Positions 27,217 through 54,782 of a stretch of DNA of 64,000 bases are shown piece after piece. The stretch lies in NCBI RefSeq assembly GCF_000186865.1, contig NW_008705571.1, forward strand, positions 1,312,465 to 1,376,464, read 5' to 3'. The translations under genes and the position numbers were made by a program. Below the pieces are notes generated by a model. The model did no database searches. It was not told the origin of the DNA and saw only the letters and a program-made list of their open reading frames with translations. Origin of the DNA: Aureococcus anophagefferens (lineage: Eukaryota > Sar > Pelagophyceae > Pelagomonadales > Pelagomonadaceae). How positions within the stretch are numbered: position 1 is the first letter of the stretch; each line of letters opens with the position of its first letter.

Positions 27217-28792
27217 ATGGCCGAGGAGCGGGTCCTCGACGTGCGCGAGATCGCGACGCTCGTGACGACGCTCTACGCGGACCGGCTGCCCGCGTCGTCG
27301 TCGTCGTCGGGCGTCCCGGCCGTGCGGAGCTCCACGGGCGTGTCCGAGAGCAGCGAGGAGCACGGCGTCGTGCTCATCCGCGACTCGAGCCTCAAGTCCG
27401 ACGAGGCCTGGACCGAGCGGGGCTGCAGCTTCGGGTCCGGCGCGTCCGGGTCGACGTCCGCGGTGCCGCGGTGCGGCACGGACGGGAGCCTCGGGCTCGG
27501 CGCGCCGTCGCCGGAGCGCCACGGCGTCGGCGGCGGCCTGGCCGCGGCCCGGGCCCTCAGCGCGCCGCGGGCCGCGCGGCGCCGCCTCACGGAGCCGCGC
27601 GCGTCGCCGCCGCCCCTCGAGGACCCCCTGGCGGACCTCGGCGCGCGCGTCGGCTTCCGGTCCGCGTACGAACTGGGGCGGACCATCGGCCGCGGCGCGT
27701 CCTCGACGGTCGCCGAGGCGACGCGGCGGCGCGACGGCGTGCGGGTCGCCGTCAAGGTCGTGGCGCCCGCGCGCGCGGCGGGGCTCGCGGACGCGCGCGA
27801 GGAGGTGAGGATGCACCGCCTCGCGTCGGGCCTGCCCGGCGTCGTGGAGCTCCTCGACGTCTTCTTCGAGGACGGGATTTTATATTTAGTCCAGGAGCTC
27901 TGCGCCGGCGGCGAGCTCTTCGAGACCATCGCGCGCGGCGACACGTACGACGAGCGCGACGCGGCCGCGGTCACGCGGCGCGTGCCTGTGTGGAAACCAA
28001 CCACCGGTTCCGGGGGTCCCGACCAACTTCACACCTCTCGATCTACGCAGGCGCGTTTTGGGCGCGCTCGCGGCGCTCCACGACGTGGGCGTCGTCCACC
28101 GCGACGTCAAGCTCGAGAATATCTTGCTGCGGTCGCCGGGCTCGAGGACGGACGTCGTCCTGGCGGACCTCGGCATCGCGCGGCGCGTCGCGCCCGGCGG
28201 CGGCGACCGGCCGACGAGCCTCGGCGGCTCCGTGCACTACCTGTCGCCCGAGGTCGTGCGCCGGGAGCCCTACGGCACGCCCGTCGACGTCTGGGGCCTC
28301 GGCGTCGCGCTCTACGCGCTGCTCACGGGGCGGCTGCCCTTCGTGGGCGCGTCGACGGCCGCGCTCTTCGACGACATCGAGCGCGGCGACGTCGACTTCG
28401 AGACGCCCGAGATGCGCCGCGTGTCGCCCGGCGGCCGCGCGGCCGTGGCGCGCATGCTCGCGCGCGACCCGGGCGACCGGCCGAGCGCGCGCATGCTCCT
28501 CGACGGCGAGCCGTGGCTCGCGGACGACGCCGCGACCGCCGTGCTCGACGAGAACATCCCCCAGCTCCGGGCCTTCCTGTCCTGGCGCGCGACGTGGCGC
28601 CGCTCCGTCCACGCCATCCGCGCGGTCAACATCCTCGCGTCGCCCTTCGCCGCGCTGCGCACCATCGCCGCGCGGCCGTCCTACGACAGCGACGCGCCGA
28701 CGCCCCGCGCGCCGCCCACGCCCGCGCCGAGCCCGCTCCGCAGCGCGAGCCCCGCGCCCGTGGAGACGAACGTGCCCGATAACGTGGACTAG
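27217..28792 (+). CDS. Serine/threonine protein kinase, CAMK-like, 2 exons
   Basis: Exons 27217-27977 and 28051-28792, 500 residues. The N-terminal ~145 residues are Ser-rich regulatory sequence. Kinase domain: Gly loop GRGASSTVAEA (~158), AVKVV lysine, VQELCAGGELFETI hinge, HRDVKLENILL catalytic loop completed only after splicing, DLGIARR in place of DFG, LSPEVVRREPYGTPVDVWGLGVALYALLTG (APE replaced by SPE) and RMLARDPGDRPSARMLLD. The pattern is CaMK/SNF1-like. Metal-binding Asp of DLG is kept, so activity is plausible. The tail is Pro/Ser-rich. The intron is a shrunken introner inserted in the helix just before the catalytic loop; without splicing the frame breaks. Confidence 0.88.
27978..28050 (+). 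mobile_element. Internally deleted family-A introner in the kinase gene
   Basis: 73 bp intron. The first eight bases GCGCGTGC match the exon-2 start GCGCGTTT at 6 of 8. The element then starts CTGTGTGGAAACCAACC, the family-A terminus, keeps ~40 bases, and jumps to a 3' end ATCTACGCAG. Phase 2 with a GC donor from the target duplication; product TRRVLGALAALH matches the kinase fold exactly. Shows that a 65-base remnant still splices. Confidence 0.82.
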
Positions 28793-30922: not shown

Positions 30923-33900
30923 ATGGACGAGCCCATGTCGCTGGAGGTGTTGAAGCAGAGCGAGAAGCGGGAGGAGGAGGCGACGGCCCGGCGGAGCTCC
31001 ACGAGCCCGCGGCGGTCCCAGGTCGCCGCGCGGTCGAGCCTCGTGCCCCGCCAGGTCGACGGCCCCGTGGCGCGCATCACGCGGCCCGTCGTCGTCGAGC
31101 CGCCCGCGGGCCCGTCGCGGGCCTACGCGCGCGCGGCGACGGTCTTCCAGCGGTCCCTGCGCAAGATCACGCAGCTGCGCGTCGAGGAGCGCGAGCGGCG
31201 GCGCGCGGCGAACATCAGGGCAGCAAAAGGGTGATTCAACGTCGCTTCAACGTGAGTGTTCCGCGCGCGCTCGTTTCGGAAATAGCACCGACGCTTCGAG
31301 AGCGCTCCGAGAGATGATCGCTCGTCCAAAAATCAGCCGAAACGAGCGGAAAACGACCGAGATCGGAGCCTTTGAAGTTGGGCATGTCGCACCCTTTTGC
31401 TGCCCAGGCGAACATGCCGTTCGAGGCCGACACCGCGGGCAGCCGCTTCAAGAAGGTGCTGCGGGACGCGCTGCGCGTCTTCCCGACGAAGAACCCGGCG
31501 GCCCTGCGCGAGGCCATGCAGAACGACAGCAGCTCCGAGGAGGGCAGCGACGACGACGACGACGGCTTCTCGGACGCGGGCGAGGAGATGGCGCTCCTCG
31601 TGGGCGAGAGCGAGGGCAAGGCGCGCGACGCCTACCGGGCGACCTGCGCCGAGAAGCTCGTGCTGCCGTCGAGCCGGGCCCTCGTGTCCTTCCGCGCGGG
31701 CGCGTGCGACGTCCGGAGCACGCACTTGGGCGACCGCGCGGTCGAGGCGCTCGCCGCGGCCGTGGCGTCCCACGGCAAGCTCGCGAAGCTGAACCTGGCG
31801 TCGAACGGCGTCGGGCCCGCGGGCTTCGACGCGCTGGCGGCGGGGCTCGCGGGCGCGGGGCACGGGCTCCTCGCGGTGTGGAAACCAACCACCGGTTTGG
31901 GTGGTCCCGACCAAACTTGAGAATTCTCGAGCTCGGTCACATCGAAGTTGATTCGGCTGATTTTTGGACGGATCGATCGCTCTCGTCGAGTTCTCGAGGC
32001 CCAGCCGAAGAGCCTGTGTCGAAACATTCGAAGACGCTCACATTGAAGTCGGGTTGAAGATTTGGTTCCACGCAGGCTCCTCGAGGCGGACCTCGGCGGC
32101 AACCGCGCGGGCGACGGCGCGCTCGCGCGCGTGGCCCTGGCGCTCGGCGCGCACTGCCCGCGGCTGCGCACGCTGTCCCTGGCGTCCTGCGGCATGTGTG
32201 ACGGCGGCGCCGGGGCCCTCGGGCGCGCGTTCCGCTGCCACGCGGACCTCGAGGTCTTGGACGTGTCCGGGAGTCGCATCACGTCCGCGGGCTGCCTCGC
32301 GCTGTCCGCGCTGCTCCGGGGCGCCGGCTCGGCGGAGCCCGCGGGCCGGGGTCCGCGCGACGGCGGCGTCGTGAGCCTCAACGCGAACTGGAACCTGCTG
32401 GGCGACGACGGCGCGGTCGCGTGCGCGGTCGCGGGCGTCGCGGCGCCGACCTGTGTGCAAATCAAATCTTCAACCCGACTTCAATGGCGCGTATTCGAAT
32501 GTTTTGACACGGGTACTTCCGCTGCGCTTCGAGAACTCGACGAGAGCAATCGATCCGTCCAGAAATCAGCCGAATCGACTTCGAATTGACCGAGCTAGAG
32601 AATTTCAAAGTTTGGTCGGGACGTCCCAGCTCACTGGTTGATTCGCACACAGGCGCCGACGGCCGTGCTCCTCACGCTGGACCTCTCCTACAACGCGCTC
32701 GGCGACGCCGCCGGCATCGGCGTCGCCCGAGCCCTGCGCACGAACCACACGCTGCGGCTCCTGGACCTGTCGCGGAACCGCCTCGGCGCGCCGTCCGCGG
32801 CCGCGTGGGCCGGTGCCGTCGCCGCGGGGCGCCACCTCGCGACGCTGAAGCTGGGCTGGAACCGATTGGGCACGGCGGGGGCCCTGGACATCATCGCCGC
32901 CTGCGCCAAGGCGCCGCCCGTGGGCCGCACGGTCGCGCCGAGCCCGCTCCACACGCTCCGCCTCGAGAACTGCTGCGGCGCGGGCCACGAGCACGCGCTT
33001 TTGGAAGCCGTGCACACGGTCGTCGCCTTCCTGAGCCGGCTGAACCGCTCCGCGCCGTCCATCGTCGTCGAGTTCCCGGACCGGCACCGCACGGTGGTCC
33101 GCGACTGCGAGTACGGACCCGCGTGGAAATCTTCAACCCGACTTCAATTTGCGCGTATTCGACGGTTTCGACGCAACTTGTTCTAATTTTCGTAGAGAAC
33201 TCGACGAGAGCAATCGATTCGTTCAAAAATCAGCCAAATCGACCTCGATTTGACCGAGCTAGAGATTTCTGAAGTTTGGCCCCGACCCCCCAGCTCACTG
33301 GTTGATTTCCACGCAGGTACGGCGACGACGAGCTCACGTTCCTCTCCGGCGCGCGGCCGCGGCTCGGGAGCGACGACCTGTCGATCGCGACGTCGCCGTC
33401 CATGGACGAGCTCACGGGCGGGCCCACGGCGCCCGTCGCCGACCGCGCCGACGACGCCGACGACGGGAGCCTCGCGGACGCGTCGCTCGGCGGCGCGAGC
33501 GCGAAGACGCTGTCGACGCACGCGTCGTGGCTCTCGCGCGAGGGCGACCGGCGCAAGGCGCGGCGGCGGCCCTTCAGCCGCATGCTCGAGATCCCCGCCG
33601 ACGCCCTCTCGAACCAGAAGTTCGCGCCGCCGGCGCCCCAGAACGAGCACGGCCGCGGGTCCATGACGGCCGCGGGCCGCCGGTCGCTCCGCGACGGGCC
33701 CGGCCGCGGGTCGCTCCAGGGCGCGCCCGGCGGCCGCGCGTCCATGCAGCGCGGGTCCTTGAACGGCGGCGGCAACCGCGGGTCCCTCAACGCCGGCGGC
33801 GCGTCGCGGGGGTCGTTGAACAGCGGCGGCGGCCGCGCGAGCCTCCAGCGGCTCCAGAGCGGCCTCCAGCGCGGGTCCCTGAAGCAGGCCTCGGCGGCCA

Positions 33901-38554: not shown

Positions 38555-39437
38555 ATGGAGTCGCCGCGCTCGAGCTTCGTCCCCCGCGCAGCCGAATGGG
38601 CGATGATGCACATCATGGCCGGCCTTCTGACCATCGGCGACGGCCTGAGCGGGAATATCGCCGAGTACTACAAGAAGGTCGCGGGGAAGCTGGGCATGAG
38701 CCCGAAGATCAAGGTCTTCGACGACGTCCAGGCGCAGGGCGGCTGCAACGACGACAACGGCAAGGGCTACCCGTACCTGATGAACCGCGTCTTCATCCAG
38801 CACTCGCTGAACCTCTTCTTCGTCGGTGCGTCGCGCCGCGCGCGCGCGCCGTCGCAGCGCCGCCTCGCAGGCGTCGAGGCCTGGGTCGCCGTGGCCTGCA
38901 TCGCCGTGGGGTCGCGCTGCGTCCTCCTCGCCTGCATGCCGCCGTTCCTCTTCGACGTGGGCTACTGGGTCGCGATGGACATCCCCGACATCGGCGGCCC
39001 GCCCGGCGCGGTCCAGACCTACATCGTCTCCACCGCCGTGATCTGTGTGGAAACCAACCGCTGGTTCGGGTGGTCCTGACCAAACTTGAGAATTCTCTAG
39101 CTCGGTCAAATCGAAGTCGATTCGGCTGATTTTTGGACGGATCGATCGCTCTCGTCGAGTTCTCGAAGCCCAGCCGAAGAGCTTGTCTCAACACATTCGA
39201 ATACGCTCACATTGAAGTCGGATTGAAGATTTGGTTTCCACGCAGGCCGTGATCCTCGCGACCGTCGCCCTCAAGGACGAGTACCCGAACATCAACGACG
39301 GCGAGTACTTCCTCGGCCTCGCGCTCCCGGTCCTCTTCATGCTCGTCGCGGCCGCCCGCCTCGTCGCCGGCGCCGCGGGCATCATGCCGTCCGTCTGCGA
39401 CAAGGTCGGCTCTGCGGCGCCGCTCTCGACCTCGTAG
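38555..39437 (+). CDS. Small multi-pass membrane protein, 2-3 exons
   Basis: Exons 38555-39034 and 39246-39437; a further 45 bp in-frame GT-AG intron at 38826-38870 is possible. The N-terminal region MESPRSSFVPRAAEWAMMHIMAG is followed by IGDGLSGNIAEYYKKVAGKLG and then four or so hydrophobic stretches (VEAWVAVACIAVGSRCVLLACMPPFLF, GAVQTYIVSTAVILATVAL, FLGLALPVLFMLVAAARLVAGAAG). I do not recognise the family. The frame is open upstream to 38222 so the true start is uncertain. The introner sits inside a predicted membrane helix and splices cleanly. Confidence 0.6.
39035..39245 (+). mobile_element. Introner element, family A, in the small membrane protein gene
   Basis: 211 bp. GCCGTGAT at 39035-39042 repeats exactly at 39246-39253. 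Element CTGTGTGGAAACCAACCG...TTGGTTTCCACGCAG with 13 of 14 matching terminal bases. GC donor, phase 0; junction VST-AVILATV. Confidence 0.95.
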
Positions 39438-52074: not shown

Positions 52075-53360
52075 TCATCTTACGTCGTCGCCCCGCCGCG
52101 GCGGCGCGAGGTTCCGGTCGGCGAAGGCGCCCGCGAGGAGCGCGACCTGGCCGAGGCCGAAGGCGTCCGGTGACCGTTCGAAGCAGACGGCGAGCGCGGC
52201 GAAGAGGCGCCGGTCCGCGTCGCCGTGGTCGACGTCGGCGACCGGCCGGCCCGCGGCCCGCGCGCGGCGCTCGCCGTCGCGCGAAAAGCCCGCCGCGAGC
52301 GCGGCGACGTGCGCGGGGTCGGCGAGCGCGAAGCCGCGGACGCGCGCGACGGCCTCGTCGGCGACGGCGGCGAAGAGGGCCGGCGCCGCCGCGCCGGCCG
52401 TGCCGAAGGCCCAGGCCACCTTGGCGAGGTCGCCGTCGGCCATGGCGCCGACGCGCGGCGCCGCCTCGCGCGCGAGGAGCGCGAAGAGCTCCGGCGCGCG
52501 CGCCGCGGCGCCGTCCGCCGCGAAGGCGGCGGCGACGTCGGCGAGGGCCGGCGCCGCGCGCCGGCGCGCGGCCGAGGACGCCGACGAGGCGCGCGAGGAC
52601 GGCGGGCTCGAGGGCGTCGCCGGCGAGCGCCGCGGCCCGCAGCTTGTCGCGCGACGCCGCCGCGAGCGCCGCGTAGACCTGTGTGGAAATCAACCACTGG
52701 TTTGGGGGGTCCCCACCAAACTTCATAACTCTTTATCTCAATCAAATCGAAGTCGATTCGGCTGATTTTTGGACGGATCGATTGCTCTCGTCGAGTTCTC
52801 GAAGCACAGCGAAAGAGTCTGGTCCAAATCGTTCGCGCACATTGAAGTCGGGTTGAAGATTTGATTTCCACACAGGCGTAGACGGGCGACGCGCCGTCGA
52901 GGCCCCACGTCGAGAGCGCGCCCGCGGCCGCCGCGAGCTCCGCGAGCGACAGGCGCCCCGCGCGCCGCGCGGCCGCGTCCGCCGCGAGGGTCACGACGCG
53001 CGCCTCGCCGGCGCGGCACGCGCCGCGGCGCGCGCCGAGGCGCACGAGGCTCCGGAGGAGCGAGACGACGGCCGCGCCCGACGCGGGCGCCGCGGGCGCC
53101 GCGGGCGGCGCCGCGGCATCCGCGACGCCCGCCTCGGCCTCGAGGCGCGCGCCGACGTCGGCGACGAGCCCGAGGAAGCCGCGGTCGCCGCGGAGCGCCG
53201 CGCGCCGGCCGCCGGCCCAGGTCGCCGACGCGACCGCGACGACGCGGACCGCGGCCGCGAGGCGGTCGATTCCGCCGGCCTCGCCCCGCGCGAGGAGCGC
53301 CGCGTGGAGGTCCAGGACCGCCGCGGGGTCCGCGCAGGCCTCGTAGGTCGCCGGGAGCAT
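52075..53360 (-). CDS. Organelle RNA-binding-type helical repeat protein, 2 exons, apparent frameshift
   Basis: Exons (minus) 53360-52884 and 52678-52075. Repeats of ~35-40 residues such as LAKVAWAFGTAGAAAPALFAAVADEAVARV, LADVAAAFAADGAAARAPELFALLAREA and HVAALAAGFSRDG match the LxxxxWAFA-type helical repeats of Tbc2/octotricopeptide/FASTK-like proteins, which bind plastid or mitochondrial RNAs. Exon 2 is one base too long: the frame changes between GVLGRAP and ALADVAAAF near ~52555, in a GC-only run. The start is uncertain; the frame is open further upstream without ATG, so a leader exon may be missing. Confidence 0.6.
52679..52883 (-). mobile_element. Introner element, family A, in the organelle-type repeat gene
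   Basis: 205 bp intron. The target duplication is exact: GCGTAGAC (plus strand) at 52671-52678 and 52876-52883, i.e. GTCTACGC on the gene strand. Element CTGTGTGGAAATCAACC...TTGATTTCCACACAG on the plus strand, with 15-base near-perfect TIRs. GT donor, phase 0; junction GASP-VYAALAAA. Confidence 0.95.
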
Positions 53361-53615
53361 CGGGCCGGACGTCGGTGACGCCGTCGACCTCGATCGCTTC
53401 GCGCGCGCCTTGTACGAGTTCCGGTCGACGACGAGCGCCCGCTTGTGCACGCCTCGCCTCCGCGGTTGCGAACGGCGAGTCCTTGGACGCGAACAAGAGT
53501 TTTCACGTCGAGCGCGGCGCGCCGATCTTTTTAGAACACGCGGTCCTGACTTCGTGCGAGTCGGCCCGTGTGTGAAACAGTGTGGAAACCAACCATAGGC
53601 GGAGGACCCCCCATA

Positions 53616-54004
53616 GCGTAAAAGTTAGATTAAGGTTAGGGTTAGATTAAGGTTAGGGCGATTTCGCCGGCGCACCCCTCCTGACACCTCTACCGCCGCG
53701 CGCGCGCGCGCCATACGTCCGGAAATTCTTAAAAAATTTTCGACTCAACTTCCTGAGAAAAGCTCAAATCCGAAGAGTTTTCGCGTGGACCTTAATCTAA
53801 CCCATCTCACAGCTATGGCTCCGGCGCCGTGAGCGCGCGCATAGACGCAGCGGTCCAACGATGTCCGATTTGGACCCGCCGATTTTTGTCAGTCGTCTCC
53901 GTCGCCCGAGCTGTCCGCCGGCAGCGAGGGGCGCGCGTTTCCGGTGCCGGAATGTTCGGTTTAATTTTGCGCCGCTTAGCTCGACCTTAATCTAACTTTC
54001 ACTC
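53616..54004. mobile_element. Nested 385 bp inverted-repeat element with TTAGGG-like motifs
   Basis: Left end GCGTAAAAGTTAGATTAAGG, right end CCTTAATCTAACTTTCACTC; 17 of 19 arm bases pair, with TA on both flanks. Next to the left arm is a second TTAGGGTTAGATTAAGG unit, giving a telomere-like look. A further inverted copy of the motif lies at ~53793. No coding frame. Probably a MITE inserted in the hAT-like element. Confidence 0.7.
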
Positions 54005-54078
54005 TAGAAGTATTATTTATTATTCTGAGGCGGGAGGCGTTACTCCTCCATAGAGGTGCTCCGTCGACGACGGCGTCG

Positions 54079-54627
54079 TCACTTCGTTATCACGACCCAT
54101 GTTTGAGCAGCACCATACTCGTTGATGGGCAGCGTGTGGCTCCACTCCGTCCGGTCCGTGGCGTAAAAGAAGAAGTAGCGGTCCGGGGCGCCCTCCTGGA
54201 GTCGCCCGCCAAATTTGCGCTTGAAGGTCGAGGTGTCCCAACCATCCTCCCAGAGATGAGCGAGACGCTTGTTCCGCCACCACGTCTTGTTCGAGCAGAG
54301 CGCGTCCCAGGCCCCCTGCGTCTCAGCGGGCTTGTCGACGAGAGAGTAGCCGGCAGGTACTGTGAAGGGGCCCCAATGCGATTGCAGGCGCTCATCATCC
54401 AGATCTTCGTCTCCGACGGGTGCATCCTCGTCTTCTGGAGGACGGCCTCGAAGTACTCGGCGATGGAGTTGTCCTTGGCCGCGTCCGCACATGCTAGGGC
54501 ATGCCTGTGGGCGATGCAATGCACGAGGAGCATGAAGGCGTTGGCCAAGTGCCGCACGAGGACCCCGCAGCCGCCCTGGTCCCCAATAAAAGAAACATCT
54601 AAAACCCCCAGCTGATATTCTCCTCAA
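54079..54627 (-). pseudogene. hAT-type transposase remnant plus second frame
   Basis: Minus strand. From ~54590 to ~54350 one frame reads GDQGGCGVLVRHLANAF then LLVHCIAHRHALACADAAKD, the conserved helix of hAT/ZNF862-type transposases just before the C-terminal RNase-H and dimerisation region (HCxAHRxxLA). It breaks near ~54350 and another frame continues as FTVPAGYSLVDKPAETQG ... DRYFFFYATDRTEWSHTLPINEYGAAQTWVVITK-stop, which I do not recognise. No catalytic DDE core is visible. Non-functional remnant; it could equally be joined by an unseen intron. Confidence 0.55.
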
Positions 54628-54782
54628 TGTGACGTCGCAGCCCGAGCCGCGCGTGAAGGGACGTAGTGCGACCGACCCACGGACCGCTCCTTCGGACTCC
54701 CTAGCTGGTTTAAGGAGCTGTTTTACGTGTACGTCCCGGAGGACTATCCTGGCAAGATTTTGGTTTTCACACTGGTGTGAAA

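Follow-up and report, generated by a model that had tools for sequence, protein, structure and literature searches.

The window, the whole 64-kb stretch of DNA analyzed here (contig 11 of a 49.05-Mb, 86-contig genome; window G+C of 71%), holds several introners and one longer element whose ends closely resemble theirs. The base composition and the type of introner would suit a pelagophyte alga such as Aureococcus. This raises the question of what kind of transposase moved the introners and how a transposon end could have become a splice site. The reading that we favor, at a probability of about 0.8, is that this hAT derivative, a family of silent MITEs and the large introner family form one group that shares its ends and was moved by a hAT transposase, with a change from A to T at position 2 of the terminal inverted repeat (TIR) making the splice acceptor.

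Anatomy of the window element

The preliminary description of this DNA had reported a 1.2-kb hAT-like element with an exact 8-bp duplication of its target (TSD) and a pair of TIRs. The duplication was borne out, as were both TIRs, and the element between the two TSD copies runs from 53578 to 54774 (1197 bp). Its TIRs are about 15 bp, inverted, with one mismatch, which fits the short TIRs (10-25 bp) by which the hAT superfamily is recognized. The hAT part of the description held for about 806 bp. A single element of 1.2 kb was rejected, since 393 bp of it, element positions 37-429, belong to a different, unrelated repeat nested in the outer element. The features are as follows.

53570..53577, no strand: left TSD GTGTGAAA, exact 8 bp
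53578..53594, plus strand: left TIR CAGTGTGGAAACCAACC, identical at 16/17 positions to the introner left end CTGTGTGGAAACCAACC
53578..53613, plus strand: outer hAT element, initial 36 bp (it resumes at 54007); same start as nine MITE copies
53614..54006, no strand: unrelated repeat nested in the outer element, with a 389-bp body between two TA dinucleotides and inverted ends TAGCGTAAAAGTTAGATTAAGGT / ACCTTAATCTAACTTTCACTCTA
54007..54774, minus strand: remainder of the outer element, a hAT deletion derivative of about 806 bp once the insert is subtracted
54082..54402, minus strand: remnant of a transposase C-terminal domain, matching residues 520-647 of protein P0048
54403..54419, minus strand: probable site of an internal loss of about 480 codons, corresponding to P0048 residues 40-519
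54420..54533, minus strand: remnant with the hAT catalytic-region motif ...HCIAHRHALACADAAKD..., matching P0048 residues 1-39
54758..54774, minus strand: right TIR CAGTGTGAAAACCAAAA (inward reading), then TCTT like the introner right ends
54775..54782, no strand: right TSD GTGTGAAA, exact 8 bp

The nested repeat has 98-99% copies elsewhere (contigs C25 and C6), 23-nt inverted ends and a TA on both sides, and the copies at loci L010 and L011 are also flanked by TA on both sides. Where the window element holds this repeat, the MITE copies have the site with a single TA. The repeat looks like a TA-duplicating MITE of the Tc1/mariner type. An internal tandem pair of GTTAGATTAAGGTTAGG was seen in it, in the window (53614-54006) as well as in L010 and L011.

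Transposase remnants in the window element

The transposase-like peptide reported earlier is present, in frame, on the minus strand of the element, and there are two remnants whose frames differ from each other. The preliminary description had named a profile search giving no hAT similarity as a result that would speak against its assignment, and the Pfam scans of the remnants, taken alone, gave that result, since they recognized no hAT family. A profile built for this family, from a long ORF on contig C6 and 43 relatives (ZNF862-like hAT proteins), did match: the first remnant scored 25.2 bits over the whole frame and 24.7 bits over 37 residues, compared to at most 4.2 bits in 300 shuffles. 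With the C6 ORF and its relative P0001 removed from the profile, the score was 24.4 bits.

When the two remnants were joined and used as a query, P0048 was found at E 1.3e-15, the sole protein at E<=1 among 99 candidates. P0048 is a 648-aa hAT transposase that scores 260 bits against the family profile. Its residues 1-32 are 69% identical over 32 aa to the first remnant and its residues 525-647 are 30% identical over 123 aa to the second, in the same order as in the window; measured against P0048, about 480 codons between the remnants are absent from the window copy. The C-terminal dimerization region of P0048, which is lost in the window copy's deletion, scores 16.3 bits compared to a Pfam cut-off of 21.4, inside the 260-bit family match. 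The C-terminal domain of the second remnant is 83-95% identical to four short proteins from public assemblies. In addition, a family profile from an alignment of 24 relatives matched PDB transposase chains at E 7e-15 and Hermes-named chains at E 4e-14.

By homology and profile, the C6 ORF and the remnant belong with the ZNF862-like, or DUF4371, hAT proteins (PF14291, PF25431, PF05699). Unlike those proteins, P0048 and the remnant have in common a C-terminal domain of about 120 aa. A Pfam scan of P0044, a relative of P0048, gave no match; PF27046 is given for P0048, its position within the protein being unstated. These comparisons support placing the window element among hAT transposons of the ZNF862-like (DUF4371/PF05699) kind, as a copy with an internal deletion. 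Its 8-bp TSD, short TIRs, related transposase and occurrence beside deletion derivatives and MITEs agree with what is described of the hAT superfamily, in which the Ac, Buster and Tip groups have 8-bp TSDs, TIRs within 10-25 bp and autonomous elements of 2.5-5 kb (PMC3942097). In contrast to these autonomous elements, the window copy is dead and about 0.8 kb long.

Search for an autonomous parent

An intact element with these TIRs and a hAT transposase, which the preliminary description had proposed to look for genome-wide, was not found; the window copy is a deletion derivative, and the assembly yielded no autonomous copy of 2.5-5 kb with these ends. Searches of the assembly with both remnants and with the core of the C6 ORF likewise gave no autonomous parent. 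Since no intact element with these TIRs was found, the enzyme that moved the introners is one that we infer. The PF05699 search of the assembly gave four places, of which only C6 was convincing, and the other three were followed by TIR scans alone; the DUF4371 search gave C6 alone. With P0048 as the query, one extra frameshifted hAT remnant related to it was found at C7:308779-309307 (L102), with no such TIRs within the surrounding 4.2 kb. Around the hAT loci, no TIR pairs exceeded the level of chance for GC-rich DNA. Six head-to-head pairs of ends, 0.7-4.2 kb apart and chosen by eye from the first 100 of 853 genomic places with introner-type ends, turned out to be twelve ordinary elements of introner length, three of which ended too soon in the extracted sequence for their TSD to be read. 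Viral contigs gave no match to P0048, and a phage collection gave none to 39 bp of the left end. The 17-mer is present in 7 viral contigs, probably by chance.

The C6 ORF (L044:4053-7700, minus strand; G000:C6) is an uninterrupted, ZNF862-like hAT frame of 1215 aa. It keeps the catalytic aspartates and the RW pair (D252, D316, R410 and W411 in the numbering of the aligned 915-aa part). Its zf-C17orf113 domain scored above the cut-off, and its hAT dimerization domain scored above the cut-off in one scan and below it in another. P0001 is 96% identical to it over 57% of the query, with fragments at C15 and C1. As the only long open hAT frame found, and the only match of the remnant elsewhere in the genome, this ORF or its lineage could be the source in trans of the transposase for both introners and MITEs. 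However, the match to the remnant is weak (37% identity over a short stretch, E 0.06), the C-terminal domain of the remnant was undetected in the ORF, and no fitting TIRs lie within the surrounding 9.9 kb. We consider such a source rather unlikely; the ORF may be a domesticated or orphaned transposase.

Ends shared by introners, MITEs and the window element

The introner left end CTGTGTGGAAACCAACC occurs in the window at 27986 and 39043, and allowing up to three mismatches gives nine window matches, the window element included (shuffle mean 0.04). Genome-wide, GTGTGGAAACCAACC occurs 78 times, with no occurrence of the reversed pattern, and the end pattern CWGTGNNGAAWHCAAMC gives 853 matches, compared to 0 in 49 Mb for its reverse. 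The window introners discussed below are listed here.

31874..32075, plus strand: introner, TSD GCTCCTCG; left position 2 is G, right position 2 is T (predicted acceptor end)
32451..32652, minus strand: introner, antisense to its host gene, TSD GCGCCGAC (plus strand)
33119..33316, minus strand: introner, antisense to its host gene; right position 2 is C (predicted unused end), left position 2 is T (predicted acceptor end); TSD imperfect, 6/8
39043..39245, plus strand: introner, TSD GCCGTGAT
52679..52875, plus strand: introner, TSD GCGTAGAC

The preliminary description had stated that the window element and the introners share their first 17 bases apart from one and have duplications of equal length, and both statements were confirmed. 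The left ends are identical at 16/17 positions, and in a set of 71 introners with an 8-bp TSD the two copies were identical in 58, differed at one base in 11 and at two bases in 2. This set consists of 68 parsed rows, minus three, plus six added by hand (L090, L107, L113, L118, L119 and window 33119). The rows dropped were L060 minus (which resembles an introner by chance), L093 minus (a second, backward reading of one copy) and L101 (a doubtful right end). Left out were L082, whose right end is altered and whose TSD TCGCGGAC would fit the rule given below; L087, with no clear TSD; the decayed or truncated L089, L100 and L103; and a window copy (32451) that escaped the pattern and whose TSD GTCGGCGC fits. 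The commonest left-end subtype is AATC, in 33/71 introners, with AACC in 18/71, so that AACC is not the commonest among the copies read. A shortened introner of 65 bp was also seen at window 27986-28050; it starts with CTGTGTGG, ends with TACGCAG, is still intron-shaped and adjoins a frame that, judged by eye, is protein-kinase-like.

The silent MITE family comprises nine copies of about 313-333 bp with the ends CAGTG...CACTG. All nine have the first 78 bp of the window element (minus the insert) and similar last bases. Six of their TSDs are exact 8-bp duplications, one has one mismatch, and two are unreadable. TIR position 2 is A in the MITEs and usually T in the introners, which have the ends CTGTG...CACAG. 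An A at this position was found in 28 of the 853 matches, namely 19 introners, 8 MITE copies or the window element, and one end without a partner; the 19 introners are 195-204 bp long and have T at the right end.

Three TIR subtypes, TG-AACC, TG-ATTC and CC-AACC, occur in both MITEs and introners. The two ends of one copy match in subtype in 52/71 introners (5000 shuffles gave a mean of 20 and a maximum of 31) and in 8/8 MITE-type copies with a readable TSD. Five introners have a CAG end on the left and a CTG end on the right. They group in a single clade (support 0.998), with 92-97% identity and five different TSDs. The clade was sampled with all CAG-left copies and some of the CTG-left copies only, and it may include CTG-left members. 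Since these mixed copies belong to one clade and lie at five sites, one transposase probably accepts both CAG and CTG ends. Among the listed non-T ends of introners, A is more frequent on the left (15/47) than on the right (3/46, p 0.003), as if the form with A at position 2 were still spreading on the left side.

Another possible explanation for the likeness of the ends is that a transposase of another superfamily with 8-bp duplications moves the introners, and that the resemblance to hAT ends is borrowed or due to chance. The assembly search gave no autonomous hAT with these ends, the base at position 2 is not the same, and introners align with the MITE and the outer element over positions 3-18 and nowhere else (E up to 0.01), with nothing in common in the interiors (blastn, E 0.01). 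However, the agreement covers both ends, the right ones as well as the left (GTGTG.AAACCAAA, then TCTT; GTGTGAAAACCAAAATCTT in the window element and GTGTGGAAACCAAATCTT in introners), both groups have the same TIR subtypes, the mixed CAG/CTG copies have spread, and the reversed end pattern is absent from the 49 Mb. This explanation is therefore distinctly improbable. The hAT link proposed in the preliminary description for the introners is supported by the homology of the remnants in the window element, and by both ends, the 8-bp TSD and the TIR subtypes, which introners have in common with that element and its MITEs.

Two further repeats were observed. At L080 (G000:C31:44900-48100; minus strand, about 47931) lies a MITE with the ends CAAGGACAAAAACAA and the 8-bp TSD AACTAGCT. 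It has a subterminal CATAGG..AGGACCCCCCATAGAAGTATT in common with the CAGTG MITEs and a different TIR. L081 (G000:C1:2851950-2852500) and five more places hold a related repeat family, 68-69% alike inside, of which a single copy was read; it has ends of the CAGTGTCGA type and lacks a clear TSD.

Target duplications and position 2 predict the splice sites

The TSD starts with GY (GC or GT) or ends with RC (AC or GC) in 71/71 introners, compared to 57/142 neighboring octamers. Where left position 2 is not T (n=21), the TSD starts with GY in 20/21 copies and right position 2 is T in 21/21; where right position 2 is not T (n=21), the TSD ends with RC in 21/21 and left position 2 is T in 21/21. A TSD starting with GY was found in 20/21 of the former and 2/21 of the latter (p 2e-8). 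Overall, the non-T end lies on the predicted non-acceptor side in 41 of the 42 introners with a single non-T end. The exception, L064, has the TSD GACAAGAC, which starts with GA, and A on the left, and would need a GA 5' splice site. No introner has both ends non-T (0/71), and the 29/71 with T at both ends are uninformative on the acceptor side. Nine more copies with a readable TSD agree with both the TSD rule and the asymmetry at position 2.

The non-T copies were chosen for being non-T, and their share here is not their frequency in the genome. There are 138 places with non-T ends (control 3), 100 of the 138 being among the matches listed. On the right-end side, 20 places were taken, the first 18 in order and two CAG ends further down, and 19/20 were readable. 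Among 20 places in listed order, 15 were complete introners that were counted and five were altered, decayed or doubtful.

Because of these counts for TSDs and position 2, we take the AG to come from whichever element end adjoins the second TSD copy, in the direction of the gene, while the other end drifts. The host frames, which were checked for the window introners only, are consistent with removal of the elements. A gene on the plus strand at 31-34.5 kb contains three introners, one sense and two antisense. When each is excised, with the first base of the TSD and the last base of the element as its limits, an open frame of 852 aa is left; the 508 aa of it that were scanned contain leucine-rich repeats. 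Stops are present in all three plus-strand frames of each of the five window introners that were tested. These copies thus behave as introners with one predicted splice site from the element and the other from the TSD, the exon being restored.

Some target preference is possible, given that MITE-type TSDs also fit the GY/RC rule in 6/8 readable cases. Target choice as the whole basis of the rule was rejected, because the non-T end sits on the non-acceptor side. That the rule reflects an insertion preference only, and that the elements are ordinary MITEs and not introns, is very unlikely despite the MITE-type TSDs that fit, since such a preference cannot account for the placing of the non-T end, and the stops in the five introners and the 852-aa frame also speak against it.

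Discussion

In the reading favored here, a hAT transposase would have moved the window element, the MITEs and the introners, leaving 8-bp duplications at each. hAT ends usually start with CAG, with A at position 2, in contrast to the T of the introner ends; because of this usual start, the change presumably ran from A to T. It would turn the element end ...CTG into ...CAG, a 3' splice site placed after the T-rich TIR, and since the TIR is inverted, the same change would work in either orientation. The 5' splice site would be the first two bases of the duplicated target, GC or GT and perhaps GA in one copy. A sense insertion would use the start of the TSD, and an antisense insertion the reverse complement of its end. 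An intron reaching from the first base of the TSD to the final base of the element would then leave the exon exactly restored, and the end unused as an acceptor would be free to drift. We also lean toward the view that a silent MITE becomes an orientation-independent introner through one substitution in its hAT TIR, from A to T at position 2. The same transposase would take both A and T ends, MITEs and introners would be one end-matched population changing subtypes together, and selection for splicing would keep T only at the acceptor end.

Introners were reportedly recognized as non-autonomous DNA transposons by Huff et al. in 2016, and a later paper is said to derive them from many transposon classes, so that we cannot claim priority. 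In the text compared of Gozashti et al. (2022), some introner families carry one splice site themselves and borrow the other from the TSD, the length of the mRNA stays the same in most families, and GC and GA 5' splice sites are found (PMC9860276). The introners described here resemble those in being short, non-autonomous TIR elements in genes, and an Aureococcus sp. example in that paper has an 8-bp TSD. Unlike the introners here, that example has both splice sites inside the element and adds 12 bp (PMC9860276). The mobilizing elements of introners were searched for in that study, with a table of candidates in its supplement; the main text uses 'hAT' 0 times, does not contain 'superfamil' and names no transposase superfamily. 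The text of PMC9860276 that was compared mentions neither a hAT source that left a transposase remnant, nor the switch between A and T at position 2, nor drift of the unused end. Introners of Amoebophrya (PMC7789003) and of a mirusvirus (PMC12768974) have been treated as well. Literature searches for introners together with hAT returned work on fungal genomes only, and none for the hAT superfamily together with a splice site.

It has been proposed that introners cause bursts of intron gain, and here the superfamily of their source can be named, at the probability given above. The genome also contains a dead relative of that source, and what separates a transposon end from a splice site would be a single testable base. 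Drift of the unused end may also provide a readout of splice-site use without RNA, one that might be extended to other introner families whose ends are inverted.
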